42,630 bases of DNA, from positions 1-42,630 of the forward strand of contig PFJC01000054.1 in the NCBI GenBank assembly GCA_002782865.1. Direction: 5' to 3'. This document shows, one piece after another, positions 11,323 through 29,086 of the stretch. The stretch is from Candidatus Uhrbacteria bacterium CG_4_10_14_3_um_filter_41_21 (GTDB taxonomy: Bacteria > Patescibacteriota > Patescibacteriia > UBA9934). Position 1 is the first letter of the stretch, and every line of letters begins with the position of its first letter. The position numbers and the translations under genes are program-made. Below the pieces are notes generated by a model. It was given only the letters and a program-made list of their open reading frames with translations. It was not told the DNA's origin and did not search any database.

Positions 11323-11718
11323 TTATACCCCAATTTGGCTTTTGCTATCTAATCCGTAGGGGTCAACTTTGCAAAAAATATTAACAATATTTATATCTGG
11401 CAATTCACGCTCCAGTCTTTCTTGAAGTTGAGTTCTATAAGAATTTGCTAAATTGCTAGCCGGGGCGTGTCTGCAACTAAGCGTTAACTGGTCGCTTACA
11501 AAAGAAATAGCGCGAATATCATCACGCAGATTAGGTTCAATTAAATCATCCAGGATCTTGTTTGCAAACTTTACAGCCATGGCGGCTTTTATTTGCCAGC
11601 CAATTCCGTGACGACCAACGGCGTCGCTTAAAATTCCGCCAATTGGCGCTGCGTTTTTGCTAAACCGGCGCTGACGATTTTTATTAACTGGTTTTGTATT
11701 GTTATCAGACCAGGTCAT
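11323..11718 (-). CDS. DUF721/DciA-like small protein
   Basis: KILDDLIEPNLRDDIRAISFVSDQLTLSCRHAPASNLANSYRTQLQERLE resembles DUF721-type proteins; overlaps the helicase start. Confidence 0.4.
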   Translation of the reverse strand: MTWSDNNTKPVNKNRQRRFSKNAAPIGGILSDAVGRHGIGWQIKAAMAVKFANKILDDLIEPNLRDDIRAISFVSDQLTLSCRHAPASNLANSYRTQLQERLERELPDINIVNIFCKVDPYGLDSKSQIGV

Positions 11719-14630
11719 ACATCACTAAATTCGCAGATATCTTTAAAATCACAATAAGAACACATAAATCCGGGTTTGGCAGAAAAATCAGATTTTTTTA
11801 TGGCGTCTACAGTTTCTAGAATTTCATTTTCTAGTTTTTCTACATCTTTTTCTTTTGGCTCAAAACTAACACAAGAGTTGTCTTCTAAATAATGGTAAGT
11901 CAGTTTTTTTACTTTTATCGGTGGATTAAAACATTGTTCTACTGCTATGGCATAAAGCAAAAGTTGACGACGGTCTTGCCAGTCAAGTTTTATTTTTGCC
12001 TGGCCGGTTTTGTAATCAATAATTTCGTAACCGTCTTCAATCTTATCGATTCTGTCAATTCGACCTTTAATGGCAACGCCACGAATTTTTAGTGTAAAAC
12101 CTTTTTCTAAAAATGCTACTTCCGGTTTTTGCTTTTGTAGAATTTTATAATAATCAGTTATGGCTCGTTTTCCGTTTTCAAAATATTCCAGCTTGATTTC
12201 CTCGTTTGGATACCATTCATCTATCCAATTATCTTCGTAAATTTGCAGCATCTCGCTCAGGTCAATCAAGCTGGTAGTTCCCTCTTGGTCAAACAGAGTA
12301 GCTTGCTTACGAACTTGCGACTCCATAATTTTTTGCATGGAATTATGCATTGATTTTCCAAAACTCATTTGATGTTTGCCAAAAACAGGAATCTTTAAAA
12401 TGTGAGCAAATTTATATTGTAGTGGGCAGGTAGAAAAAGCTGCAATTTGGGTAAAAGAAAGCGTAGCCGGTAGCTTATAGCTGATAGCTTTTAGGTTGGG
12501 GTCGTTTGTTTTTATTTGTTCAGGCTGATTAAAAGCACCCGTTATGTTTATGGGTTTCGTCTCGATCTCAAGCTCTGCCAAAAACCGCGACGGTTTTCGT
12601 TTTCTGGTTCCTCCGTAGTCGTCAGCTGAAAATAGAAAAACTCCTTCTTTGGCTCTGGTGAGCGCCACATAAAATAGTCGTCTTTCTTCTTCAATATGAA
12701 AATCACCTTCCGAGTTTAATCTTTCTTTTATTAAGCCTTCCGGAATTTCAATTGGATCAGATCTTCTGGTTGAAGGAAATCTTTGTTCAACCAGGTTAAT
12801 TATGAACACATATTTAAATTCCAATCCTTTTGAGGCGTGAACGGTCATTACATTTATAACATCAGGCCCGGCCTCAATATCAGTTTTAAGTCCACCGGCT
12901 TCGCCTGCGTTTCGTTCGTGTTCAAACTCTTCTAAAAAGGCATGAAGTGATTTATCTTCGGCTCCAACTTCGAATTTTTTAATTCTGGCAAAAAATTGCT
13001 GAAGCAGATCATTTTGTTCCATTTGTTCCCTATCATCCAATTTCATCACCTCACCGAGTAGCCCTGATTGCTTAATAGTTTCAACAAAAACTTCGCCCGC
13101 AGATTTTCGTCTGGCAATTTCGCGTAAATTGTGGAGCAGTAAAAGTAAATCACGGATTTTTGTTTTGCCTTCATCACTAATGTTAAGTGCTGTTTTCATG
13201 GCGTCTAGCATCGAAATCCCTTTAAGCCGACAGTAAAGTGAAAGCTCGGCAATATCTGCACTTCTTATGCCAAGAATTGGATGGGAAAGAATTCGATACA
13301 TTGCCGGACTGGTGTGCGATTGATCTAAAACCCGCAGATATGCTAAAGCGTCAATAATAATCGGCTTTGTGTACAGTCCGGAAAGCGCCATAAAACGGTA
13401 TGGCAAGCGAATTGAGTCCATTGCTTCTAAAAACGGTTCAGCACTGTCATTGGCGCGAGTAAGAATACAAAAATCATGCCAGTTACAATCATCTTGCTTT
13501 TTTAATTCTATTATTTTTTCAATTACAGCTGATACTTCGTCGTCGATTGAGTCTGAATGGTAATGCTCAATTTTGCCTTCTTCCTGGCGGTGTGCTACTA
13601 ATTTTTTGTTTAAGTTCTCTTTAACCTCTAGGCGATTTGGATTATTTTTTTGGATTAAAGTGTAAGCCTTGTCTAAAATTTGAGCGCGACTGCGGTAGTT
13701 TTTATTTAAGACAATATTTTTTGCACTTGGAAAATCTTCACGGAAAAGCATGATGTTTGAAAGTGATGCTCCGCGAAATTTATAAATTGATTGGTCGTCG
13801 TCACCAACAACGGTGATGTTGTATGGTCCTTTTGTTAAAAGTTTGATTAGTTCGTATTGAGCAAAGTTTGTGTCTTGGAACTCATCAACTAAAATGTATT
13901 TAAATTGATCTTGATATTTTTTAAGGATTTTTGGTCGCTTACGAAACAATTCGATTGTATAGGAAACAAGATCGGCAAAGTCGAGCGCTTGATTTTCAAG
14001 TAAGATTTGTTGATAAAGATGATAAGCGCCGGCAATCTCGCTAATGCGTTCAATTTCAGAAAGATCGGCTGCTTGTTCTTCGGACGCCACCCCTTCAAAA
14101 CTGTCAGTATTCATTTTTAAGTTTTGAGCAAACTGCAAATATTCGTCCGGAGAAACTACCTCGTCTTTTATTCTAGAAAAATGTGATAGCATTGCTCGAA
14201 TAAATCTGGTTGGATTTCCGCGTGGTCGATAATAATCCAAATTAAATCTATCCAGATTTTTTCGCATTAAAAGAAAAGTATCTACATCATCCAGAAGATT
14301 GAACTGATCCGGCAGGCCAATTTCGAGCGCATTTTCATGGAGTACGCGCTCACAAAAAGCGTGAAAGGTTGAGATCCAGAGATCAATATAACCAATTGGT
14401 AAAAGCTGGTCCACTCGCTCTTCCATTTCAGTAGCAGATTTTTCAGTAAAAGTAAGCGCCAACACTTCATCTGGTTTGGCTTTTTGTTGTTCTATTAACC
14501 AAGCAATGCGCTGGGTGATTGCTGTGGTTTTTCCGGTTCCAGCACCGGCGATTATCATTAAAGGCCCCTCACCGTGGGTAACGGCGGCAAGTTGCTCTTC
14601 GTTTAGATTTTCAAGGAGATTATCGGGCAT
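11715..14630 (-). CDS. UvrD/PcrA-like superfamily 1 helicase fused to a C-terminal PD-(D/E)XK nuclease with AddB/Cas4-like cysteines
   Basis: Walker A AGAGTGKTTAIT; VDEFQDTNFAQYELI; GDDDQSIYKFRGA; VMTVHASKGLEFKYVFI; EIIDYKTG; CSYCDFKDIC. Confidence 0.9.
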   Translation of the reverse strand: MPDNLLENLNEEQLAAVTHGEGPLMIIAGAGTGKTTAITQRIAWLIEQQKAKPDEVLALTFTEKSATEMEERVDQLLPIGYIDLWISTFHAFCERVLHENALEIGLPDQFNLLDDVDTFLLMRKNLDRFNLDYYRPRGNPTRFIRAMLSHFSRIKDEVVSPDEYLQFAQNLKMNTDSFEGVASEEQAADLSEIERISEIAGAYHLYQQILLENQALDFADLVSYTIELFRKRPKILKKYQDQFKYILVDEFQDTNFAQYELIKLLTKGPYNITVVGDDDQSIYKFRGASLSNIMLFREDFPSAKNIVLNKNYRSRAQILDKAYTLIQKNNPNRLEVKENLNKKLVAHRQEEGKIEHYHSDSIDDEVSAVIEKIIELKKQDDCNWHDFCILTRANDSAEPFLEAMDSIRLPYRFMALSGLYTKPIIIDALAYLRVLDQSHTSPAMYRILSHPILGIRSADIAELSLYCRLKGISMLDAMKTALNISDEGKTKIRDLLLLLHNLREIARRKSAGEVFVETIKQSGLLGEVMKLDDREQMEQNDLLQQFFARIKKFEVGAEDKSLHAFLEEFEHERNAGEAGGLKTDIEAGPDVINVMTVHASKGLEFKYVFIINLVEQRFPSTRRSDPIEIPEGLIKERLNSEGDFHIEEERRLFYVALTRAKEGVFLFSADDYGGTRKRKPSRFLAELEIETKPINITGAFNQPEQIKTNDPNLKAISYKLPATLSFTQIAAFSTCPLQYKFAHILKIPVFGKHQMSFGKSMHNSMQKIMESQVRKQATLFDQEGTTSLIDLSEMLQIYEDNWIDEWYPNEEIKLEYFENGKRAITDYYKILQKQKPEVAFLEKGFTLKIRGVAIKGRIDRIDKIEDGYEIIDYKTGQAKIKLDWQDRRQLLLYAIAVEQCFNPPIKVKKLTYHYLEDNSCVSFEPKEKDVEKLENEILETVDAIKKSDFSAKPGFMCSYCDFKDICEFSDV

Positions 14631-14693: not shown

Positions 14694-16250
14694 TTACATA
14701 TCGTTTCCGGAATAACTTAGATTTAACGATTTATTGCAGAGCGGAAAATCGGGAACAATATTTCCTGGACCGATTTCACCAAATAATGGCCAATTGCAAA
14801 ATGATGGATCTCTTACCACGCAACGCTCAATAACACCATTTTTTATCTGAACGATAGTTATAATTTCACCGCGACAAGATTCAACAGCCGAGATTCCCAA
14901 GCCGTCATTATTTTTGTTTGTTGATGATATGTTATCTTTTTTGATTGTTTTAATAATTTGGTTGATCATGGCGGTACTGACTTTTAATTCACGATAACGC
15001 ATTTTGAATCGAGAATAAACATCACCGATTTCCAGCATTATTATCTTAGGCTTCAATTCCGCATAACTTGCATATGGATGATCGCGTCTGACATCAATAT
15101 CAATCCCCGATGCCCTGGCTGTTAAACCAACCGCACCATAAGCTAAGGCGGCTTCTTTTTTTAAAATTCCCGTTGTTTCCAATCGTTCTCTCAATCCATC
15201 ATTATCGTGACATATTTTAATCAAATTTTGCAGATCATCATTTGCTTTATTGATAGTCATTTGAATATTATCCAATTCCGTCGATGATAAATCCTGTGAT
15301 AGACCACCCGGAATAATGAGGCCTCGCCAAAAACGGTTTCCGCACACTTCTTGTGACAAGCGCATCAGTCTTTCTTTAATTTTAAATCCTTGTGAGGCTA
15401 TAACCGTAAATCCGGTACCCATTCCACAGATATTTGAAATATCAAAAATATGCATTGTAATGCGCTCAATTTCGTTTAATAGTGTCCGTAATTGACGAGC
15501 GCGAGGCGAAATTTTTATATCGGAAATACTCTCAATGGCTTGTGAAAAAGCCAAGGTGTGAGAAATGGCCATATCGCCGGAAATTTTTTCTATGAATGGC
15601 AAAGCTTCGATGGGACTTTTGTTTTCGAGGATTTTTTCAATACCTTTATGTGTAAAGAATAACTTACCTTCCAATGTAATTATTCGTTCGCCTATGACAT
15701 TGAAACGAAAATGACCTGGTTCGATTATACCGGCGTGAATCGGTCCAACCGGAATTTCATAAATTCCTTCTGCTCCGGTTACATGATGCATTGGATATAT
15801 GGTATTTGCGTGTTTGAGTTTTGTATTCCAGGCGAAATCTTTTCTTAATGGGAATGTGTTTAAGGGAATATTTTCATGGTGAACAAGGCGGCGAGGATCA
15901 GGGTGGCCGATCGCAACAATACCGAACATATCCATTGCGTATCTTTCATACCAGTGAGCTGACATAATTGTTTTCGTCAGAGACTCATAAGTAGGGTCAG
16001 ATTCGGGTAAAGCCGTTGATATTTGCAGCCATTCACCCGTTTCGTCTAGGCTGAATACGGCGTGCAGTCCGAAGGAATGATTTGATTGACGATTGTCGGT
16101 TGCGTAAAGCACAGCCATTCTTAAGGTAAATTCATTGCTCAATCGACTGCAAACGATTGTAAATATTTCGCGATTCAAACTGACGAATGTAGTTGATTTT
16201 TCAGTTTCACCGACAATACCAAGTTTTGTTAATATTTCTTGAACGAGCAT
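14694..16250 (-). CDS. Hydrogenase-4 component G-like large subunit (NuoC + NuoD-like fusion) lacking Ni-ligand cysteines
   Basis: YERYAMDMFGIVAIGHPDPRRL; VGPIHAGIIEPGHFRF; L1 position EKISGDMAISH; C-terminal RDPSFCNWP. Confidence 0.88.
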   Translation of the reverse strand: MLVQEILTKLGIVGETEKSTTFVSLNREIFTIVCSRLSNEFTLRMAVLYATDNRQSNHSFGLHAVFSLDETGEWLQISTALPESDPTYESLTKTIMSAHWYERYAMDMFGIVAIGHPDPRRLVHHENIPLNTFPLRKDFAWNTKLKHANTIYPMHHVTGAEGIYEIPVGPIHAGIIEPGHFRFNVIGERIITLEGKLFFTHKGIEKILENKSPIEALPFIEKISGDMAISHTLAFSQAIESISDIKISPRARQLRTLLNEIERITMHIFDISNICGMGTGFTVIASQGFKIKERLMRLSQEVCGNRFWRGLIIPGGLSQDLSSTELDNIQMTINKANDDLQNLIKICHDNDGLRERLETTGILKKEAALAYGAVGLTARASGIDIDVRRDHPYASYAELKPKIIMLEIGDVYSRFKMRYRELKVSTAMINQIIKTIKKDNISSTNKNNDGLGISAVESCRGEIITIVQIKNGVIERCVVRDPSFCNWPLFGEIGPGNIVPDFPLCNKSLNLSYSGNDM

Positions 16251-16254
16251 ATGA

Positions 16255-17715
16255 TTAAATAGATTTTGCTATATTATTCAGTACTTGCAGTGCTTGTGGT
16301 GTCGTAGCCAGTAAACCGGTAATTATTATTAATATAAGTTGAACAGACATTACGGAATGGGTAATGTTCCATTTTTCTTTTGGAAATACTTTACGGTCGT
16401 TTTCTTGGCCATACAACATTGTGATAACGCTGTGTAACATGCTGAATGTAGCTATTGATAATGAAATCAAAATCAGTGAAGACAACCAAGGATGTTGTTG
16501 CAAGCCCAAACCCAATGTCATGAATTCGCTCGTAAACAGAGCGGATGGCGGCACGGCTAAAATCATTAAAAGTCCAAGCGTGGTCAGCGTGCCGGTTATA
16601 GGTAATTTACGCATAACATTTCTTACACCTTCAATTTTTGTAGTTCGATATGACAATAATATTTCCCCGGCTCCAAAAAATAGCAATGGTTTTGTTAATG
16701 TATGAGCGATAGTGTGCAACAAGGCTGCAACCAATCCGATTGGCCCGAGACTGATTGCAAATGCCATAATACCCATATGTTCAATACTTGAATAAGCCAG
16801 CATGCGTTTATAATTGCGTTGTTGTAATAGAAATAAACTCGCGACTGTCACGGAAAGAACGCCAAAAGCTAAAAAGATGTGGTCAGTCCATTGTTCTGAG
16901 CTAAGTGATATGTCCACAATACTTTTAAAACGTAAAATTGAGTATAAGGCTATATTTAATAGTATCCCCGATAACAACGCGCTGATAGGTGATGGTGTTT
17001 TACTGTGTGCGTCCGGTAACCAAGTATGCATTGGAACAAAACCTACTTTTGTACCAAGTCCTATAAAAATGAAAATAAAACCATAACGAATTGTGTCGTG
17101 ATTAAGAAATTCAGCTTTATTTTGTAGAGACGAGAATGAAAGAGAAGTAAAGGAAAATAGACCGGCATCAGTCACACCGGTATATATAAAAATCATCATA
17201 CCCAGAAGACCTAAACTGATACCGATTGAACAAAGGATTATATATTTCCAAGCGGCTTCGATGGCGGCATCGCCACGATACATGGCAACAAGCAAGGTTG
17301 TGGCAAGAGTTGTACCTTCGAGACCAATCCAGAGGATACCTAAATTATCCGCCAATACCGTCATTAACATACTAAGGATGAATATCGGTAGGAGACAAAA
17401 ATACAATCTTACTTGGTTTAAAGATATGATTTTTTCACCATATTCAACATTTATGTAACGGTAACTGACTATGGTCGCGGTTAAATAACAAAAAGAAATC
17501 AAAATTACAAAGAGCAAACTGAACTCATCTGCCTTGAATAAACCGCCAATGGATAAAGTAATTTTATTTATTAAGGCTAATAAAGCGACGCCGATTATAC
17601 TGACAGCGGTTACAGTGGACATCAAAACAGAGAATCGTCGTATTTGTGACTCTGTTTGAGCGAAATAGACAACAACAGTAGTCAATAACAAAAGAGCTGA
17701 AAAAATAGACATCAT
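16255..17715 (-). CDS. Hydrogenase-4 component F-like antiporter-type membrane subunit
   Basis: GLGTKVGFVPMHTWLPDAHSKTPSPISALLSG; LWIGLEGTTLATTL; AHTLTKPLLFFGAG. Confidence 0.88.
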   Translation of the reverse strand: MMSIFSALLLLTTVVVYFAQTESQIRRFSVLMSTVTAVSIIGVALLALINKITLSIGGLFKADEFSLLFVILISFCYLTATIVSYRYINVEYGEKIISLNQVRLYFCLLPIFILSMLMTVLADNLGILWIGLEGTTLATTLLVAMYRGDAAIEAAWKYIILCSIGISLGLLGMMIFIYTGVTDAGLFSFTSLSFSSLQNKAEFLNHDTIRYGFIFIFIGLGTKVGFVPMHTWLPDAHSKTPSPISALLSGILLNIALYSILRFKSIVDISLSSEQWTDHIFLAFGVLSVTVASLFLLQQRNYKRMLAYSSIEHMGIMAFAISLGPIGLVAALLHTIAHTLTKPLLFFGAGEILLSYRTTKIEGVRNVMRKLPITGTLTTLGLLMILAVPPSALFTSEFMTLGLGLQQHPWLSSLILISLSIATFSMLHSVITMLYGQENDRKVFPKEKWNITHSVMSVQLILIIITGLLATTPQALQVLNNIAKSI

Positions 17716-17717
17716 AT

Positions 17718-18347
17718 TTATTCGGTAAGTTCGGTTAGACTTGAGGTGTCACCAGTTGCGTATTCTTCTTGAATTTGGCGACTTAAAATAGCCATAATGA
17801 TTACACCGGTTGTCAACGTTAATAATATTCCCGCTTCTATGGTTAATGGAATTCCAATCATTGAAAGTATTCCGAATGTCGCTATTCCATTTTCAATGGT
17901 CATAAATCCTATGATTTGAGAATATAAATCTTTGCGTATAATCATTAATATAAATCCGATAATTATTAAAGATGAGGAAACAAATGGTATTACCGGAAAG
18001 AGTTGGGTCATGTAAGCGATCCCCATTAACATAATTGCCAGTATGAAGTAGGTCGCCGTTGGTTTCAAATAAAATTTCAGTTGCATTGAAGCATGCACAC
18101 GACGAGCCGAATTAGTCATTATTATTGGTATCGCAATGACCTTAATAATTATTGTTCCTATGACAACATACATTTCATGTTCGTCACCGTGTATTAGCGA
18201 ATTAGTTAGGATTAATCCGGCCAAACACAGTGATGCAAAAACAAAATGGCGTATTAAAGCCGGTAGTCGATGCTTACTGATTAATATTAATGAAAACATC
18301 AGCAAGCCGGCTGTAAATAAATTGCTCCAAAGAGTCAATGACATCAT
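17718..18347 (-). CDS. Hydrogenase-4 component E-like membrane subunit
   Basis: 209-aa multi-TM protein in the conserved hyfE position; IGFMTIENGIATFGI. Confidence 0.75.
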   Translation of the reverse strand: MMSLTLWSNLFTAGLLMFSLILISKHRLPALIRHFVFASLCLAGLILTNSLIHGDEHEMYVVIGTIIIKVIAIPIIMTNSARRVHASMQLKFYLKPTATYFILAIMLMGIAYMTQLFPVIPFVSSSLIIIGFILMIIRKDLYSQIIGFMTIENGIATFGILSMIGIPLTIEAGILLTLTTGVIIMAILSRQIQEEYATGDTSSLTELTE

Positions 18348-19270
18348 AAGGTATTTGTAATTAAAGCTATTACCAAGCCGGCGAGACCAAGTAAAAATGC
18401 GCCAGTTAAATATTCTTGCATTCTATAGAGACGTATTTTTGTGATTATCGATTCAAAAAACGCAAGTAGCGCCATCGAAATTATCAGCTTGGCGATCGTC
18501 AGAATAATAATGGTTGCGATTGAAATAAAATCAACGCTCTCAAGCAAAAATAAAGATGGCCAAATGATATTTGAAAGTAGTAATGCAAAGATAGTGATTT
18601 TTATGTAACTTGCGAACTCCAACATTGCCAAATATGGACCGGAGTATTCAAGCACCATCGCTTCATGAATCATTGTGAGCTCCAAATGGGTAGATGGGTT
18701 ATCAATCGGATATCGTTTATTTTCAGACAAAGCAATCATAATCAAGGCGCCGATACTTAAGATTATGTGCGGAGTTTGTATAATAGTAATTTGCGCGGCA
18801 ACCATATCGCCGATATCCGATGTACCGGTGACAACTGCGAAACCTGCCAATGTGATAATTATCGTCGGTTCCAAAAGCGCGGAAATTGTCATCTCTCTGG
18901 AAGCACCCATTCCGCCAAAGGCACTGGCAGAATCAATTCCGCCAAAAACAAGGAAGATCGCGCCAATCATCAAAATGCCAGCAACCACAAACAAATTGCT
19001 TGAATAACCAAAAGTAATCAAGGGCAGAATGAAAGCCAAGACAACAGTGCTACCAAGAACGACATAAGGTACCAAACGAAAAACCCAAGTTGTATTGGTT
19101 GAAATTACCATTTGCTTGCGCATCAAAGTGGCAAGAGAAAAATAAGACAGAAACGGATTAGCTCCCCTCCTGCCTTGTAGTCGTGCTTTGAAAAATCGAA
19201 CCAAGCCGATGCAAAAAGGTGCAAGACTTAGGATTATAACCAACTGAATAAAGCCGAGAATTATTGTCAT
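18344..19270 (-). CDS. Hydrogenase-4 component C / NuoH-like membrane subunit
   Basis: RRGANPFLSYFSLATLMRK; YPIDNPSTHLELTMIHEAMVLEYSG. Confidence 0.9.
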   Translation of the reverse strand: MTIILGFIQLVIILSLAPFCIGLVRFFKARLQGRRGANPFLSYFSLATLMRKQMVISTNTTWVFRLVPYVVLGSTVVLAFILPLITFGYSSNLFVVAGILMIGAIFLVFGGIDSASAFGGMGASREMTISALLEPTIIITLAGFAVVTGTSDIGDMVAAQITIIQTPHIILSIGALIMIALSENKRYPIDNPSTHLELTMIHEAMVLEYSGPYLAMLEFASYIKITIFALLLSNIIWPSLFLLESVDFISIATIIILTIAKLIISMALLAFFESIITKIRLYRMQEYLTGAFLLGLAGLVIALITNTL

Positions 19271-21258
19271 ATTGATAGAAAAACAGTGCTAATCAAAGCT
19301 AGTACAATCAATGATATATAAAATTGGATTATTCCATTCTGTATCCGTCGTACAAGTGTGGATAAGAGAAGTGTAAGACGCGCTATCGGTCGGTAAAATA
19401 ATTCAAACCAAATGTGTTTTCTATTTAATTCGATATGACGTGAAATCATCCATTTATTGTTGGGGATTATGCGCGTGTCAATGATTTTTTTATTAAAACT
19501 GAACAGTATGTTGAAGAAAAAGCGAATAGGAGCGGAAAATGCCGTTGCGGTGTATTCCATTTGAGAGTTTATCGGTTGCCCACAGTCCCATGTGTGATAG
19601 GCTCGTTCAAATTTTCTTTTGCTGAAAATATACCGCAAAGAAAATACCAGTATGATAGAGCCAATTATCAAACTCCCGATCAGTAAAGGATTATAGTTAC
19701 CGTCTGTGAGAGCTAATGATGTTTTAAGACCGTTATTTATCGTTAGAGAACCTAATCCGATTATTTTTAGTATGGATGGCGCTCCGAGTCCAAGGATAAC
19801 GGATGCGATGACTGTCAGGGCGACAGACAATGAGAGCAAAAAATTCGGTTCTTTGGCGTGTGTGATTTCTTTACTGCGCGAGCCGGCTAGGAAGATTAGA
19901 GCAAACATTCTTACCATTGCAAAAATTGATAAACCACCGACAAAAGAGAAAGTCGCCAACACCGTAATCAATAAACCTTGATTGAGTTGGGAAATTGAAA
20001 TAATTGTGTTTATGATTTCTTGGAGGAATATCCATTCACCGATAAAACCGGAGAATGGTGGTAAGGCGACAGCAGTAAGGATTAAGAACAGTATCAATCC
20101 TGAAAATTTTGGCATATAGTGGGCAAGTCCCCCCATCACTTCCAAACTTCGGCTATGAGCTTGGCTCATAATCACCCCGGCTCCCATAAATAATCCTGAT
20201 TTAAAAAGTGCGTGTGCGAAAGTGTGAATTATCACTGCCGTGATCGCTGTTGTAAATAACAGCGGCTGATTGATTGATTGAGCAAATAATGCCACTCCAA
20301 CCATTGAAAAAAGTAAGCCTAAATTCTCCATTGATGAATAAGCCAGTATTTTTTTTAAATCATTTTCAACTACCGCATATAGAACGCCATAGACGGCGGT
20401 TATCAATCCTATGAAAATAATAATATATGTCCAACCTGTTGGGAGTGTCGGCCAAACAGATAACGCCAGTCGTAGAAATCCGTACAGTGCCACCTTCAAC
20501 ATTACACCGGACATCAAAGCCGAAATATTGCTTGGTGCTTGAGGATGAGCCTCCGGCAGCCAAACATGAAATGGCCATAAGCCTGCCTTTGATCCGAAAC
20601 CAAAGACAGCCAGAGCAAATGTTACCCCGAGCAACCCAATTGATAAATCTGAAGATATTATTGAAATTTCATCGAATGATGCAAAAAATAAACCCTTTGA
20701 TAAGATTGAAAAACTGGCGAGAATCGCACCGGCGCCAAGATGTGTCATTATCAAATAAAGCAAGCCGGCTTTAATAGATTCAGTCTGCTTATCGGTAAAA
20801 ACCAAAAATAAAGAAGTGAAGGACATTATTTCCCAGCCTGCTAAAAAACTGATTGGGGTCGTTGAAATTAAAACAAGTTGCATGCCAAAAATAAACAACG
20901 CCATTAAGAACGTGACTGACTGTAAATTATATGTTTTTGAGTATAGCGGTAAATATCCGATACTGAATAAAGCAACTATACAAATAACTGTATTTACTAT
21001 GAAGAAAAATAATGCGGACAAATAGTCAATTTCAAAGACTGATCCGAAAAGAATCGAGCTGCTGCCGATAATAATATTAGCTTGGGCACTAAGAAAAAAT
21101 AAAATACTGGAAATAGCGCCAACCAAAGCGGCTATACTCAGTATTGCTAAACTTATTTTTTGAATAATAAATCGGCGTCCGAGAAGCGCGATAATGGAGG
21201 CTGAAAATGAGCCAATCAAAGAAAACCAAATTAAAAATACAATCATTTGGGTGTTCAT
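19267..21258 (-). CDS. Hydrogenase-4 component B-like antiporter-type membrane subunit
   Basis: FGFGSKAGLWPFHVWLPEAHPQAPSNISALMSG; FLAGWEIMSFTSLFLV; FAHALFKSGLFMGAG; AYHTWDCGQP. Confidence 0.9.
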   Translation of the reverse strand: MNTQMIVFLIWFSLIGSFSASIIALLGRRFIIQKISLAILSIAALVGAISSILFFLSAQANIIIGSSSILFGSVFEIDYLSALFFFIVNTVICIVALFSIGYLPLYSKTYNLQSVTFLMALFIFGMQLVLISTTPISFLAGWEIMSFTSLFLVFTDKQTESIKAGLLYLIMTHLGAGAILASFSILSKGLFFASFDEISIISSDLSIGLLGVTFALAVFGFGSKAGLWPFHVWLPEAHPQAPSNISALMSGVMLKVALYGFLRLALSVWPTLPTGWTYIIIFIGLITAVYGVLYAVVENDLKKILAYSSMENLGLLFSMVGVALFAQSINQPLLFTTAITAVIIHTFAHALFKSGLFMGAGVIMSQAHSRSLEVMGGLAHYMPKFSGLILFLILTAVALPPFSGFIGEWIFLQEIINTIISISQLNQGLLITVLATFSFVGGLSIFAMVRMFALIFLAGSRSKEITHAKEPNFLLSLSVALTVIASVILGLGAPSILKIIGLGSLTINNGLKTSLALTDGNYNPLLIGSLIIGSIILVFSLRYIFSKRKFERAYHTWDCGQPINSQMEYTATAFSAPIRFFFNILFSFNKKIIDTRIIPNNKWMISRHIELNRKHIWFELFYRPIARLTLLLSTLVRRIQNGIIQFYISLIVLALISTVFLSI

Positions 21259-21265
21259 ATCAATA

Positions 21266-21793
21266 TTAATTTCTCAAGGATTGTAAAATAACACTAAGTA
21301 TTTGCTTTGGACTTGGTGGGTCGCCCGGAATCTTAATATGAACAGGGATTACCGATTCTACCGGTCCGACAACGGCATATGAATCCTTCCAGATTCCACC
21401 TGTACAAGCGCCATCACCGATCGCGACAACAATACACGGATGAGGCGCTGCCTCATAGGTGGTTTTTACGGCGCGCTCTAGATTTCTGGTCACCGGGCCA
21501 GTTACCCATAGCATGTCGGCGTGGCGCGGTGAAGCAACAAAGCTTAAGCCAAATCTTTCTATATCATAATAAGCATTTCCAAGTGCTATTAATTCCATTT
21601 CCTCGGCATTTGTTGACCCACCATCAACGGCTCTGATACGCAAAGAGCGACCATTATAAAGCTTTTTTATAATGGTCTTAAGTTCGGTACCTATAGTCTC
21701 AAGATCAACATCTTTATTTTTTTTGTAATTATTTTCCGGTTCAGTCAGATTAGAATTTAGAAAAAGATACTTCAGTAATTTGATTTTAGACAT
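21266..21793 (-). CDS. Hydrogenase-4 component I / NuoB-like small subunit lacking all four [4Fe-4S] ligand cysteines
   Basis: VASPRHADMLWVTGPVTRN fold signature; cluster motif positions read DGGSTNAEEMEL, GDGACTGG, PGDPPSP. Confidence 0.85.
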   Translation of the reverse strand: MSKIKLLKYLFLNSNLTEPENNYKKNKDVDLETIGTELKTIIKKLYNGRSLRIRAVDGGSTNAEEMELIALGNAYYDIERFGLSFVASPRHADMLWVTGPVTRNLERAVKTTYEAAPHPCIVVAIGDGACTGGIWKDSYAVVGPVESVIPVHIKIPGDPPSPKQILSVILQSLRN

Positions 21794-21946: not shown

Positions 21947-22354
21947 CTACAGGGGGCGGTTTTTGGGGTCAGCGAAGAAGGATCGCTGACCTGGCGCACT
22001 GCCGCTCACTAGTCTGGCATTGGCATAGGCGCGCAGAGCCGGACCGATGATGATGCGGTCTTCTTCTTTCGAGCTTCTCAGTACGAGTGCGATGACATTT
22101 CTGTCTTGCATCAGCTTGAATAGTGCTACCCTTCGTTCAGGGCTGACGTGCGGATCCATGTACGAGAAAGCGACCACAGCCACGTTCGGACTATTGCGAG
22201 GCTGGTAGCTCATGACACCTTTGTCCATGGCCACAGGTGTCGTTGGCACGGCCGTAATTCCGAGCTTTTCGAACACGGTGGCGACATCTTTCATCGACAG
22301 GTGACCTGTGTCTTCTTCAGTCAGTGGGAAGCAGAAGATGAATGGTTCCGACAT
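21947..22354 (-). CDS. Orphan 135-aa protein of unknown function, GC-rich
   Basis: ORF preceded by an AGGAGG Shine-Dalgarno on the minus strand (CCAGGAGGTATTCATG) and flanked by terminators. Confidence 0.6.
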   Translation of the reverse strand: MSEPFIFCFPLTEEDTGHLSMKDVATVFEKLGITAVPTTPVAMDKGVMSYQPRNSPNVAVVAFSYMDPHVSPERRVALFKLMQDRNVIALVLRSSKEEDRIIIGPALRAYANARLVSGSAPGQRSFFADPKNRPL

Positions 22355-22463: not shown

Positions 22464-22898
22464 CTACTGCTTTCCAACATCCCTATACTTCCCTTTTCTG
22501 GCTACCTTGTAACGCGCCAATTCTCTTTCTAGGTGAACTAAGGCGTCGGCATAGACAACATCACCTTGATTTCTTGCTTCTTGCAAGCGCTTTTCGGCCA
22601 AGTCTTTAGCTTTTTCAATTTCTTCTAAGGTCAATTCTTCAGATCTTTCGGCAGAATCAGCCAAAACCACAACCGAATTTTCGTTCCTAACTTCAATTAG
22701 TCCGGTTGAAACAGCTAGAAGTGATTCATTTCCACCATCTTTTAATCTCATCTCACCGGAGCGCAAAAGCGAAACCAATGGGGCATGATTTGGTAAAATA
22801 GTAATCTCACCGATTTCTGTCATAACAGAAATCGAATCAACCGAGTCTTCGAAAACGGTTCTTTCTGGTGTTACGATTTTTAGGTTAATTTTCTGCAT
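22464..22898 (-). CDS. atpC: ATP synthase epsilon subunit
   Basis: LKIVTPERTVFEDSVDSISVMTEIGEITILPNHAPLVSLL. Confidence 0.93.
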   Translation of the reverse strand: MQKINLKIVTPERTVFEDSVDSISVMTEIGEITILPNHAPLVSLLRSGEMRLKDGGNESLLAVSTGLIEVRNENSVVVLADSAERSEELTLEEIEKAKDLAEKRLQEARNQGDVVYADALVHLERELARYKVARKGKYRDVGKQ

Positions 22899-22903
22899 AG
22901 GTC

Positions 22904-24289
<1,386 letters not shown>

Positions 24290-24327
24290 TTATCTTTTAA
24301 GTCGCATAGGGCCTATAAGACCTATAG

Positions 24328-25236
24328 TTAATTATTCATTGATTCAAGAGCCGCTTTTCCGGTTGAAATTTCGGCAATCTCTTGAGTAATTCCAGCCTGG
24401 CGGATTCTGTTATAGGTAAACTTTAATTCTTCAAGCATTTCGTTAGCGGCGTCGCTGGCGTTACGCATGGCCATCATGCGGGCAGAGTGTTCAGACGCAG
24501 TCGACTCCAGAAGCGCTTGGTAAAGCATTGTTTCAATCAGTCTTGGCAATGTTCTATTTAACACCTCTTGCGCGTTTGGCTCAAAAGTATATTCAGTTTT
24601 TCCGTTTCCATTTGTTCCATTTGTGGTTTTATCGACATTACCAAGTTTCTTGTCTGGAGTGCTGAATGGTAGCAGCTCTAGAAGTCTTGGTTTTTGCTCA
24701 AGCCCGGAAATATAGTCTGTGTACCCAAGTACAACTTTTTTGTACTCACCATTCATGTAACCGTCTAGGATAAGTTTTGAGATTGGTAAAATATCACCAA
24801 ACACCGGTTTGTTAGTCAGGCCTTCAAAAGTTGCTATAACATTAACTTTTTTCTTAGACAGCGCCATGTCCCCCTTTTTACCAACTGATATCAGATCAAA
24901 AGGCGTTTCTTTATTTTCTCGCAGTAACTCAATTGATTTTTTTACCATGTTTGAGTTATATCCTCCCGCCAGTCCACGGTCTGATGTAAATAAAACTAAA
25001 AGTATTTTTTCAGCTTCATCATTGCTTTGCAAAAGTGGATGAGAAACATTTGGAGCATAAATTCCCACTGAGGTAATTGTTTGCCAGGAAAGTTTTGCAA
25101 ATGGGCGAGTGTCTGTAGCTGCCGATGTTGCCCTACGCATTTTTGAAGCAGCCACAAGCTCCATCGCCTTGGTGATTTTCATCGTGTTGGCGATTGATTT
25201 GATTCTGCGTTTTACAACTTTTGCGTTAGCACTCAT
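24328..25236 (-). CDS. atpG: ATP synthase gamma subunit
   Basis: VKRRIKSIANTMKITKAMELVAASKMRRA; SDRGLAGGYN. Confidence 0.96.
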   Translation of the reverse strand: MSANAKVVKRRIKSIANTMKITKAMELVAASKMRRATSAATDTRPFAKLSWQTITSVGIYAPNVSHPLLQSNDEAEKILLVLFTSDRGLAGGYNSNMVKKSIELLRENKETPFDLISVGKKGDMALSKKKVNVIATFEGLTNKPVFGDILPISKLILDGYMNGEYKKVVLGYTDYISGLEQKPRLLELLPFSTPDKKLGNVDKTTNGTNGNGKTEYTFEPNAQEVLNRTLPRLIETMLYQALLESTASEHSARMMAMRNASDAANEMLEELKFTYNRIRQAGITQEIAEISTGKAALESMNN

Positions 25237-25307
25237 ATTTTAGCTCTTAGCTTATAGCTGTTAGCTATTAGTTTTCCCTAATAGCTAAGGGCTAATAGCT
25301 AATGGCT

Positions 25308-26810
25308 TTAGTTAAATGTCTTCTCAAATTCTTCTATGTAGTTTTTGATTTCTTTTTTTGAACTGTCTGAAATTTCCTTTTCGTCATGAATTGTTTTTAA
25401 CACACCAGAGGCACTAGACTCCATAAAGTGCAAAAACTTTTCTTCAAACTCCAATATTTTTCCAACTTCAACATCGTCTAGATAACCTTCGTTTAGTACA
25501 AAAATCATCACTGATTGTTTTTCAAAAGGAATCGGTGAATACTGTTTTTGCTTCATTAACTCCATTGAACGAGCTCCGCGATCCAGCTGTTTTTTTGTAG
25601 CTTCATCAAGGTCGGTAGCGAATTGGGCAAAAGCTTCAAGTTCACGATACTGAGCCAAATCAACTTTAAGTGTTTTTGAAACTGATTTCATGGCTTTGGT
25701 TTGAGCAGCTGATCCTACTCGAGAGACTGAAAGCCCAACATTAAGAGCCGGTCTTTGACCTTTGTAAAAAAGATCGCTTTCCAAGAAAATCTGACCGTCA
25801 GTAATTGAAATAACATTAGTTGGAATATAAGCGGACACATCGCCAGCTTGGGTTTCAATAATCGGCAAGGCTGTAATTGATCCACCACCAAATTCATCGC
25901 TTAGTCGGGCAGAACGCTCAAGTAGTCTTGAGTGCAGGTAAAACACATCTCCCGGATAAGCTTCGCGTCCTGGTGGACGACGAAGTAGAAGCGAGATTTC
26001 ACGATAAGCCCAGGCGTGTTTGGAAAGATCATCATAAATTACCAAAACATCTTCGCCTTTAGCCATAAAGTATTCAGCAATTGCACAACCTGCGTAAGGC
26101 GCAATGTAGGCCAAAGACGCTGGGTCACTGGCTCCGGCAAGCACAATAGTTGTGTATTCCATGGCCCCTGCTTTTTCCAGGCGAGCTGTGATAGCTGCAA
26201 TCTTTGATTCTTTTTGTCCAATTGCTACATAAATACACTTCATGTTTTCACCTTTTTGGTTGATGATAGTATCAATTGCAATTGCTGTTTTTCCAGTTTG
26301 ACGGTCGCCGATAATAAGTTCGCGTTGACCACGACCGATCGGGATTAAGGCGTCAATAGCTTTAAGTCCGGTGTGAACCGGGGTATCAACTGATTTTCGA
26401 GTAATAACACCTGGAGCGATCTTTTCGATAGCCTGCAAGTTGGTAGCTGTGATTTTTCCCTTTCCGTCCAGTTCGACACCGAGTGGATTGATAACACGAC
26501 CAACAACACTTTCGTCAACAGGAATTGAAAGAATTCGTCCGGTTGATTTTACAGTGTTTCCTTCTCTGATTTGACTTGGATCGCCAAGCACAATTGCACC
26601 AACTGATTCTTCCTCTACGTTAAGCGCAACTCCGAAAACGTTTTTTCCGAAATCAACAAGTTCCATTGATTTAGCATCAGCTAGTCCGCTGATGCGAACA
26701 ACTCCGTCGGCAACCGAAAGCACTGTTCCAACTGATTCAACCTTAGCGTCAGATTGAAAAGCTTGGACCTGCTTTTTTAATTCTTCAATTATTTCACTCT
26801 TGGTAGTCAT
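25308..26810 (-). CDS. atpA: ATP synthase alpha subunit
   Basis: [52 protein letters not shown]. Confidence 0.98.
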
Positions 26811-26837
26811 ATATAGGTCTTATTGGTCCTATGGGAC

Positions 26838-27221
26838 CTATTTCATTAATACTTGTTTCAAATTTTGTAATTTGCCTACGACCGAGCCGTCTATTCTAGT
26901 ATCATCAATTCTGATTACGGCACCACCGATTAGTTGCTCGTCAACTCTTTCTTTTAAATCAGCTCCTGGCGCGATGCTATTAATCATTTTTCTGGTTTCA
27001 TCATTTAGTGTGTGAGCAGAAAGTATTTTAATGCTTGAGGCGCCGTATTTTTCTTTCCAGATCGTATGGATTGCTCTTTCAATGTCTCGCCATTTATCAA
27101 GCATCTGTTTTTCTTTGAGAATATTTACAAACTCTTTGATAATTGCTGTTACATCTTCTGATTTTCGGCCTTCAACAGCTTCTATCAAAATCCGCGCAAA
27201 TTGTTTTGCGTCTATTTTCAT
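26838..27221 (-). CDS. atpH: ATP synthase delta subunit (OSCP-like, short)
   Basis: Position between atpF and atpA; LKERVDEQLIGGAVIRIDDTRIDGSVVGKLQNLKQVL. Confidence 0.85.
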   Translation of the reverse strand: MKIDAKQFARILIEAVEGRKSEDVTAIIKEFVNILKEKQMLDKWRDIERAIHTIWKEKYGASSIKILSAHTLNDETRKMINSIAPGADLKERVDEQLIGGAVIRIDDTRIDGSVVGKLQNLKQVLMK

Positions 27222-27222
27222 A

Positions 27223-27789
27223 CTAAATCATTTTACGAACCGCTTCTTCTGCAAGTGACTTTGATTTTGATTCATCGATTTGATCTTCTGCAATTCTGGT
27301 GGCTGCCTTCATGGCAATATCAATGATTTCTTTTTTTAGTTCTCGCATCATGGCTTCTTTTTCCGCGACTAACTGTTCTTTGCCTTTTACAATCACTCTT
27401 TCAACTTCCCGTTTGGCTGCGCCAATGATTTCCTCTCGTCTTTCTTCTCCTTGCTTGTGAGCTTTGTCAGCGATTTCTTGAGCTTCGCGTCTGGCAGTGT
27501 TCATTACTTCATCGCGTTCTTTTTCTATTTCTGAAACTCGTTTTTCAATCTCATCGGCTTGCTTAACGCTTTTTTCGATTTTTTCTTCGCGTTCATCTAG
27601 CATTCTTACAATTGGTCGGTATGCAAAGCGCCACAAGACAATTAAAACAAGTAAAAAGTTTATAAGTTGAGCGGTAAACATTTGACCGTTTAATCCAAAC
27701 TGACCGGCAACGGCCACAATTGGATTTTCTGATTCAGTTTGAGTTTCCTCATGTGTTTCCTGAATTGTTCCTGCTGTTTCTTCGTCCAT
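27223..27789 (-). CDS. atpF: ATP synthase b subunit
   Basis: One TM then long charged helix: LWRFAYRPIVRMLDEREEKIEKSVKQADEIEKR. Confidence 0.92.
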   Translation of the reverse strand: MDEETAGTIQETHEETQTESENPIVAVAGQFGLNGQMFTAQLINFLLVLIVLWRFAYRPIVRMLDEREEKIEKSVKQADEIEKRVSEIEKERDEVMNTARREAQEIADKAHKQGEERREEIIGAAKREVERVIVKGKEQLVAEKEAMMRELKKEIIDIAMKAATRIAEDQIDESKSKSLAEEAVRKMI

Positions 27790-27799
27790 AGATCTCGTC

Positions 27800-27827
27800 G
27801 TAGGAGCACGGCATGCCGTGCTCCTAC
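27800..27827. repeat. Perfect 28-bp palindrome GTAGGAGCACGGCATGCCGTGCTCCTAC (REP-like)
   Basis: 14-bp arms with no loop; preceded by ATCTCGTC shared with the second palindrome. Confidence 0.85.
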
Positions 27828-27867
27828 TTTGTAAATTCTTAATAAATTCATTCTCGATAATCTCGTC

Positions 27868-27896
27868 GTAGGGGCGAGGCGTCGCCTCGCCCCTAC
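27868..27896. repeat. Palindrome GTAGGGGCGAGGC-GTC-GCCTCGCCCCTAC (REP-like)
   Basis: 13-bp perfect arms, 3-nt loop; preceded by ATCTCGTC. Confidence 0.85.
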
Positions 27897-27918
27897 GGAC
27901 ATCATCAATGTCAATTTA

Positions 27919-28137
27919 TTAAAGCGTAAATGCAATAATAAGTGCATAAATAGCGATCGCTTCCGCGAAAGCCATTCCAAGAAGCATTGGAGTAAATAGT
28001 TTTCCGGATGCCTCTGGGTTTCGTCCGATTGATTCCATGGCTTTCATACCAATGAATCCAATCGCAAGAGCTGGTGCAATTGATCCAACTCCAATGGCAA
28101 GTGCTTTTGCCAAAAGTGTCATTGTCTCTGCGTCCAT
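27919..28137 (-). CDS. atpE: ATP synthase c subunit
   Basis: GVGSIAPALAIGFIGMKAMESIGRNPEASGKLFTPMLLGMAFAEAIAIYALIIAF. Confidence 0.95.
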   Translation of the reverse strand: MDAETMTLLAKALAIGVGSIAPALAIGFIGMKAMESIGRNPEASGKLFTPMLLGMAFAEAIAIYALIIAFTL

Positions 28138-28169
28138 AATATTAGTTATTTATGTTATTAACGGGACAA

Positions 28170-28199
28170 TCTGTTTCCACCAAGCTTGATGAAAACAGA
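28170..28199. repeat. Inverted repeat TCTGTTT...AAACAGA in the atpB-atpE spacer
   Basis: 7-bp perfect arms. Confidence 0.5.
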
Positions 28200-28207
28200 C
28201 AGTCGCA

Positions 28208-29086
28208 CTAAGCATGAGCTTCTGCTTGTTTGTGTGTTTCACTGTGTTCCTCTTCGTGGTTGCCGTGACTCATTGTTGCCACCACCATAAAAGCAAGGGT
28301 AAGCATGGCAAAAACCGTGGCCTGAATAATCCCAACTAAAAGTTCCAGAAAAATAAATGGAATTGGAATTATATAAGACATTAGGCTAAGCATTACTGTC
28401 ATTAGTACTTCACCGGCAAAAATGTTTCCAAAAAGTCGAAGTGAAAGTGAAAGTGTTTTAGCGAACTCACCGATGATTTCAATTAGTCCGATGAAAAATT
28501 CAACCACAGCTACGATTATTGCCATTGGTCCTTTTTTAAGTGACAGCCAAATACCTTTAAGGTTGAAGAATTTACTAAAGTGATTAAATATTCCCTGAGA
28601 CTTCATTCCTGCCAAGTGTGTTGATAAAATTGCAACAAAAGCAATAGCGAGGGTCATATTGAGATCTGCTGTTGCTGGACGAAGTAGTGGAATCAATTCT
28701 AATTCTTCATGCATATAGCCCCAAATTCCAATTGATCCAGTCCCTGGAATTTGTCCCATCCAATTACTTACGAGAACAAAAAAGAAAATTGTCGCAATGA
28801 GTGGTAGGAATTTTCTGGCATTTTTTTTGTCTTGAGTAACTTTTTCTATCTCAAGTAGAGCGAACTCAATAACAGTTTCTATAATATTATGAATTCCTTT
28901 TGGAACAAGTGATTTTCGACGCGAAGCGATTATGGCCACTAAAATAAAAAACCCAACCGCAATGTAGGCGTTGAGCATTGAATTTGTGACTGTAAAATGA
29001 CCGATTTCAAAAATCGGCTCAGCTGCGAGCGGTATGCTTACAAATGCGGTTTTAATCCCTCGGTCCTTGTTCATAAAGTTTCGCAT
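28208..29086 (-). CDS. atpB: ATP synthase a subunit
   Basis: FAKTLSLSLRLFGNIFAGEVLMTVML; PLIATIFFFVLVSNWMGQIPG. Confidence 0.96.
   Translation of the reverse strand: MRNFMNKDRGIKTAFVSIPLAAEPIFEIGHFTVTNSMLNAYIAVGFFILVAIIASRRKSLVPKGIHNIIETVIEFALLEIEKVTQDKKNARKFLPLIATIFFFVLVSNWMGQIPGTGSIGIWGYMHEELELIPLLRPATADLNMTLAIAFVAILSTHLAGMKSQGIFNHFSKFFNLKGIWLSLKKGPMAIIVAVVEFFIGLIEIIGEFAKTLSLSLRLFGNIFAGEVLMTVMLSLMSYIIPIPFIFLELLVGIIQATVFAMLTLAFMVVATMSHGNHEEEHSETHKQAEAHA

Follow-up and report, generated by a model that had tools for sequence, protein, structure and literature searches.

What can a complex of the hydrogenase-4 type do once its large subunit has no place left for nickel? This question is raised by a gene at positions 14694-16250 of a 42,630-nucleotide contig (PFJC01000054.1, referred to as a whole as the window) of Candidatus Uhrbacteria bacterium CG_4_10_14_3_um_filter_41_21. 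A preliminary description, made from the letters of the DNA, had read it as a hydrogenase-4-like large subunit of the energy-converting hydrogenase-related (Ehr) group in which all four Ni-ligand cysteines are replaced.

A large subunit without nickel ligands

The gene is a single intact frame of 518 amino acids, with a NuoC-like domain (PF00329, E 2e-20) and a NuoD/hydrogenase-like one (PF00346, E 8e-44; PF00374, E 3e-9). Its best solved relative is HycE of the E. coli formate hydrogenlyase (FHL; 7z0s_E, phmmer E 2e-58), which is also ranked first by Foldseek (E 1e-30), and the proteins closest to it, 57-63% identical, belong to CPR bacteria and for the most part to Uhrbacteria. The following features are relevant.

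14694..16250, minus strand: EhrL/HyfG-like large subunit, fused NuoC- and NuoD-like domains, without Ni ligands (domain profiles, phmmer, Foldseek)
15570..15581, minus strand: S224-G225-D226-M227, counterpart of the Ni-ligand motif C-G-x-C (alignment)
14706..14723, minus strand: N510-L-S512-Y-S-G515, actual counterpart of DPCYSC, without cysteine (alignment)
14793..14810, minus strand: DPSFCN, paired with HycE RAATYANW (alignment)

In the HMMER alignment, EKI-S-GD-M of the window lies opposite DRV-C-GI-C of HycE, the first two Ni-ligand positions being Ser224 (15579-15581) and Met227 (15570-15572), and SLNLSYSG lies opposite SLDPCYSC, the last two being Ser512 (14715-14717) and Gly515 (14706-14708). 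The preliminary description was therefore right that no Ni ligand is left and that the N-terminal pair has become Ser and Met (SGDM opposite CGIC), but not in its second motif alignment, since DPSFCN, which it had equated with DPCYSC, is placed about 30 residues off by the alignment with HycE. The intact NuoC-like domain and overall fold that it reported are borne out by the profile matches and by Foldseek. Neither of the two observations that it had named as contradicting it was made: no cysteine aligns with a ligand site, and an assembly error or frameshift as the cause of the cysteine loss is ruled out by the open frame together with some 30 agreeing relatives. Among aligned CPR relatives, position 224 is Ser in 31/32, position 227 is Met, Ser, Thr or Ala in 31/31, position 512 is Ser in 30/30 and position 515 is Gly in 29/30 (Ala in the other one), while five Cys-bearing relatives (L015, L016, L047, L048 and L049) have cysteine in all four of these columns. 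The large subunit is thus without a standard NiFe site and lacks the four Ni-ligand cysteines by which a group 4 [NiFe] hydrogenase is recognized. An AlphaFold model of the subunit alone has a pLDDT of 72.8 and is unreliable at residues 119-201 and 486-518, the cavity region.

Loss of the Ni ligands in CPR large subunits is already published. The main text of Jaffe et al. 2020 (PMC7304191) describes the group-4-related large subunits of CPR as a monophyletic Ehr clade without metal-binding cysteines that 'likely cannot interact with H2', and by that description the window protein belongs to the same clade. Ehr of Nitrospira and of relatives of Cyanobacteria have been characterized likewise, without Ni-binding cysteines. 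The locus has what defines Ehr, namely a large subunit of the group-4/complex-I family, no Ni cysteines, and antiporter-like and NuoH-like subunits in the operon, so that the placement in Ehr holds on the grounds of the HycE alignment, the tree (see below) and agreement with the published work (PMC7304191). An N2-capable small subunit, which is assumed in redox models of Ehr but is not part of the published, large-subunit-based definition, was not found in the window. The main text of PMC7304191 is silent on the loss of N2 in the small subunit, the missing ferredoxin and the kept membrane channels, and also on the ATP synthase locus, the new Asp and the carbonic-anhydrase-like neighbours, all of which are discussed below.

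Operon and membrane arm

The six genes of the operon are all on the minus strand, in the order NuoB-like, HyfB, HyfC, HyfE, HyfF and HyfG-like (the large subunit).

21266..21793, minus strand: small subunit of the NuoB/HycG kind, N2 cluster ligands missing (alignment)
19267..21258, minus strand: HyfB/NuoL-like antiporter-type subunit, E143/K224/K255/K353/E408 kept (profiles, alignment)
18344..19270, minus strand: HyfC/NuoH-like subunit with conserved RYPIDNPSTHLELTMIHEAMVLEYSG loop (profiles, alignment)
17718..18347, minus strand: HyfE-like subunit, C-terminal part NuoK-like, E152 and E171 kept (profiles, alignment)
16255..17715, minus strand: antiporter-type membrane subunit resembling HyfF, channel residues E133/K223/K341/E397 retained (profiles, alignment)

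Together these genes encode a complete minimal complex of the complex-I/group-4-hydrogenase type, with four membrane subunits (HyfB, C, E and F) and a connecting module made up of the NuoB-like and the fused NuoC/D-like subunit. The half-channel Glu and Lys residues of HyfB and HyfF are retained in the window and nearly throughout its relatives; the same holds for the acidic HyfC loop and for both NuoK-type glutamates in HyfE. Fold and subunit set (large, small and membrane subunits) are those of E. coli FHL (7z0s) and Hyd-4, from which the window complex differs in having no NiFe site, no N2 ligands and no HycF/HyfH ferredoxin subunit. Ehr of Nitrospira, Geobacter and Margulisbacteria are hydrogenase-4-type complexes without Ni ligands as well; however, the formate-dehydrogenase partners that a passage of PMC6349859 proposes for Margulisbacteria Ehr have no counterpart seen at the window. 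Downstream of the operon, a UvrD/PcrA-type helicase is fused to a C-terminal PD-(D/E)XK nuclease domain (11715-14630), a fusion gene that occupies this place in many Uhrbacteria loci.

The small subunit and the supply of electrons

An alignment of the NuoB-like subunit with MbhJ and HycG spans their cluster-N2 motifs and shows the N2 cysteine positions to be taken by T61 (21611-21613), E64 (21602-21604), G128 (21410-21412) and D158 (21320-21322). In the 27-28 CPR Ehr rows examined, position 61 is T, S, D or N, position 64 E, C or A, position 128 G, D or T, and position 158 D or N. The full [4Fe-4S] N2 ligand set is absent in every one of these relatives; a second CPR Ehr subclade often retains a single N2 cysteine (C64), and in L039 and L041 the aligned region of the subunit contains no cysteine. 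This loss of N2 ligands is apparently new, no earlier account having been found in the main texts of the literature. A new metal site shared between the subunits and formed by type-A cysteines (C485 and C505 in the large, C120 and C130 in the small) was considered and dropped as not general, L009 and L012 lacking some of them.

As internal controls, the true group-4 hydrogenases of three CPR genomes (L047-L049) keep all cysteines in both subunits. The Ni and N2 sites are both kept in Desulfosporosinus (L015/L016), and the Nitrospirae Ehr L013, unlike the window, has lost the Ni ligands while retaining all four N2 cysteines. The tree places the window large subunit with the CPR rows and with L013 and L015/16, at a distance from NuoD. 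The 30 CPR rows with 'dead' large subunits form one group (support 84/95, an open fork) that excludes L013 and L015/16; some branches are long, and the placement of L046 is unsure. Since these two lineages lie outside the dead CPR clade, the simple reading of the outgroup pattern would be a stepwise loss, of the Ni site first and of N2 later. It may be added that the group-4 complex of L015 and L016, although its Ni and N2 cysteines are complete, has no adjoining ferredoxin subunit.

There is no HyfH/NuoI-type ferredoxin subunit in the operon. Across the window genome (883 kb, 98.6% complete) no match was found to Fer4_7, the single ferredoxin family searched for, which was positive in 14/14 control genomes, and the HypD maturation protein, also expected of a group 4 [NiFe] hydrogenase, was not found either. 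Among genomes whose dead Ehr has not decayed, 16/27 likewise gave no Fer4_7 match, as against 4, 5 and 14 matches in the three CPR genomes that retain intact hydrogenase sites. The preliminary description, correct in seeing a maintained Ehr without a NiFe site, had missed both the loss of Fe-S ligands in the small subunit and the absence of ferredoxin. With these missing too, the question shifts from which redox substrate is used to whether there is any redox at all.

Selection on an emptied module

Purifying selection acts on each of the six genes: pairwise dN/dS between four Uhrbacteria loci is 0.04-0.12, NuoB being lowest (finite-dS pairs only, and rough figures, with dS near saturation). 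These values, the intact frame and the agreement between relatives uphold the earlier view of a maintained protein rather than a decayed gene. Mean identity over both subclades is 0.58 for NuoB and 0.47 for HyfG, versus 0.30-0.46 for the membrane subunits. The large subunit is itself most conserved at residues 161-180 (0.95) and 501-518 (0.88), segments that align with the stretches around the NiFe site of HycE, and Asp226, between the former N-terminal ligands, is invariant in 31/31 dead CPR rows and found in no outgroup row. A conservation peak at the emptied site and an invariant Asp226 argue that the emptied cavity is not neutral space.

The ATP synthase locus and its carbonic-anhydrase-like genes

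The operon lies immediately behind the genes for ATP synthase.

22464..29086, minus strand: ATP synthase gene cluster (atpC, D, G, A, H, F, E, B), directly upstream of the operon (profiles)
27919-28137: ATP synthase c subunit, H+-type site AFAEAIAIYAL (motif)
21947..22354, minus strand: 135-aa ORF separating atpC from the NuoB-like gene, without resemblance to carbonic anhydrase (profile comparison)

Dead-Ehr operons are found directly behind atpDC in many loci. The assignment of c subunits to Na+ or H+ follows established c-ring motifs. An H+-type c subunit is present in 24/25 dead-Ehr genomes versus 16/26 Ehr-less relatives (Fisher p 0.005, kinship uncorrected), the remaining c subunits having the Na+-type E...EST site. 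The two types (EAI and E...EST) switch within one CPR class and even within the window's own family, and one genome (G582) has both. Dead Ehr is patchily distributed, in 12/381 sampled genomes of the phylum (three true hydrogenases subtracted) and in 19/287 genomes of the class, one of these being a pseudogene (L084). In the latter (genome G587) the large subunit has decayed into two fragments with an internal stop, evidence that loss of the system is possible. L011, a contig assigned to Acidobacteria, encodes a dead Ehr large subunit of CPR type (54% identity), owing to either misbinning or transfer.

In both subclades, about a dozen loci in all, carbonic-anhydrase (CA)-like genes are neighbours of the dead-Ehr operon, mostly on the same strand. 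One family, CA1 (L007, L009, L010, L038, L080 and L169), has a profile that matches CsoSCA (2fgy, E 6e-14) and an invariant C-D-R/H/C, and is, across the class, modestly more frequent in genomes with Ehr (5/18 versus 16/269 others, p 0.006). A second, CA2 (L004, L005, L006, L017, L037 and L040), has invariant C39, D41, H114 and C117 (CxD and HxPC motifs); beta-CAs are its best, but weak, fold neighbours, no Foldseek match reaching E 0.001 with a model of pLDDT 65. L079 has a third CA-like protein (CxDGR...HxxC). A CA2 paralogue without the Cys/His motifs lies directly behind the large subunit in three loci (L005:11087-11737, L006:11694-12290, L017:11607-12251). A search of the window genome for CA1, CA2 and Pro_CA found none of them, and its ORF at 21947-22354 was rejected as a diverged CA for want of a profile match. 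In several Ehr-less CPR genomes, the ATP synthase operon is directly followed by CsoSCA-like genes, which come after atpC and in places before uvrD; the one at L164 scores above the Pfam CsoSCA_cat cut-off.

L164:7936-9018, L171:4379-5401, L173:4724-5659, L176:4911-5963: CsoSCA-like genes, Ehr-less genomes
L179:5046-6047, L180:4798-5820, L181:4666-5688, L183:4790-5596: CsoSCA-like genes, Ehr-less genomes

A carbonic-anhydrase link is suggestive but confounded by the shared ATP synthase locus.

Proposed function and rival explanations

Two dismantled metal sites, the lack of an Fe-S wire in the operon, the kept channels and purifying selection lead us to infer a redox-silent ion machine. That the complex carries no electrons is very probable, although some members of one subclade keep one N2 cysteine (C64). 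The best explanation of the genes as a whole, with a probability of about 0.5, is that the complex, moving no electrons, has become an ion-gradient-coupled, non-redox machine beside an H+-type ATP synthase. The old active-site cavity would have been rebuilt with Asp226 of the large and Asp158 of the small subunit into a gate, proton relay or binding site that drives conformational coupling along the NuoH-like subunit, and ion transport might be linked to chemistry in this cavity. At about even odds, this would be a natural member of the complex-I superfamily that works without any redox centre, its module being rebuilt around conserved aspartates so that ions move through the intact membrane arm in response to a non-redox event (binding of a ligand, uptake of protons, or CO2/bicarbonate chemistry). 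In the Mrp cation/H+ antiporter, antiporter-type subunits work without redox. By analogy, the most likely mechanism, at roughly even odds, would be a proton-coupled secondary transporter with Mrp-like cation/H+ exchange, the ion specificity being taken solely from the c-ring correlation; Mrp shares the antiporter-type subunits with the window complex but has no NuoH-, NuoB- or NuoD-like subunits.

Three other explanations have to be weighed, each of them unlikely. Complex I and MBS are redox pumps that have no Ni ligands but do have cluster N2 and a NuoI subunit of ferredoxin type. They show that a pump can do without Ni ligands, and Ehr complexes are generally thought, according to a passage of PMC6349859, to couple redox chemistry to ion pumping; the electrons of some carrier might still reach a flavin, a quinone or a substrate in the large-subunit cavity. 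A flavin, a quinone or an Asp/Glu-bound metal, none of them ligated by the lost cysteines, may indeed be a cofactor, and docking of an external electron carrier on the complex is conceivable in principle. However, the window complex lacks precisely the N2 ligands and NuoI-type subunit that complex I and MBS keep, and its genome is without Fer4_7, which makes a redox pump doubtful. It is just as doubtful that the connecting module is an evolutionary remnant, a structural plug without specific function on membrane subunits engaged in ordinary Na+/H+ exchange. Patchy occurrence in the phylum and the decayed copy at L084 would fit, but the module is the most conserved part of the complex, and its conservation peaks at the emptied site with a clade-specific invariant Asp226.

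Slightly less improbable, if still unlikely, is a DAB-like supply of bicarbonate, in which proton flow through HyfB and HyfF, driven by the proton-motive force, would activate a carbonic-anhydrase partner for CO2 hydration. DAB2 offers a precedent (PMC13144422), combining without any redox a NuoL-like proton channel (DabB) and a beta-carbonic-anhydrase-like protein (DabA), and both the CA-like genes adjoining dead-Ehr operons and the enrichment of CA1 in Ehr genomes are in line with it. DAB2, however, has two subunits and no NuoB/NuoD-like module, no beta-CA-like partner of the CA1, CA2 or Pro_CA type was found in the window genome, and the CA2 model is of low confidence. A CA partner was downgraded from main explanation to rival by the occurrence of CA1 behind atpC in Ehr-less CPR genomes, since adjacency may then reflect only a shared ATP synthase locus.

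Implications

How electron transfer is coupled to proton pumping in complex I is a long-standing question. A relative without known redox centres, in which connecting module and channels are nevertheless under strong selection, amounts to a natural experiment in which conformational change and ion movement are uncoupled from the redox trigger. It suggests that complex-I-type modules can be driven by something other than redox, and it also bears on how CPR bacteria, with their tiny genomes, handle membrane gradients.
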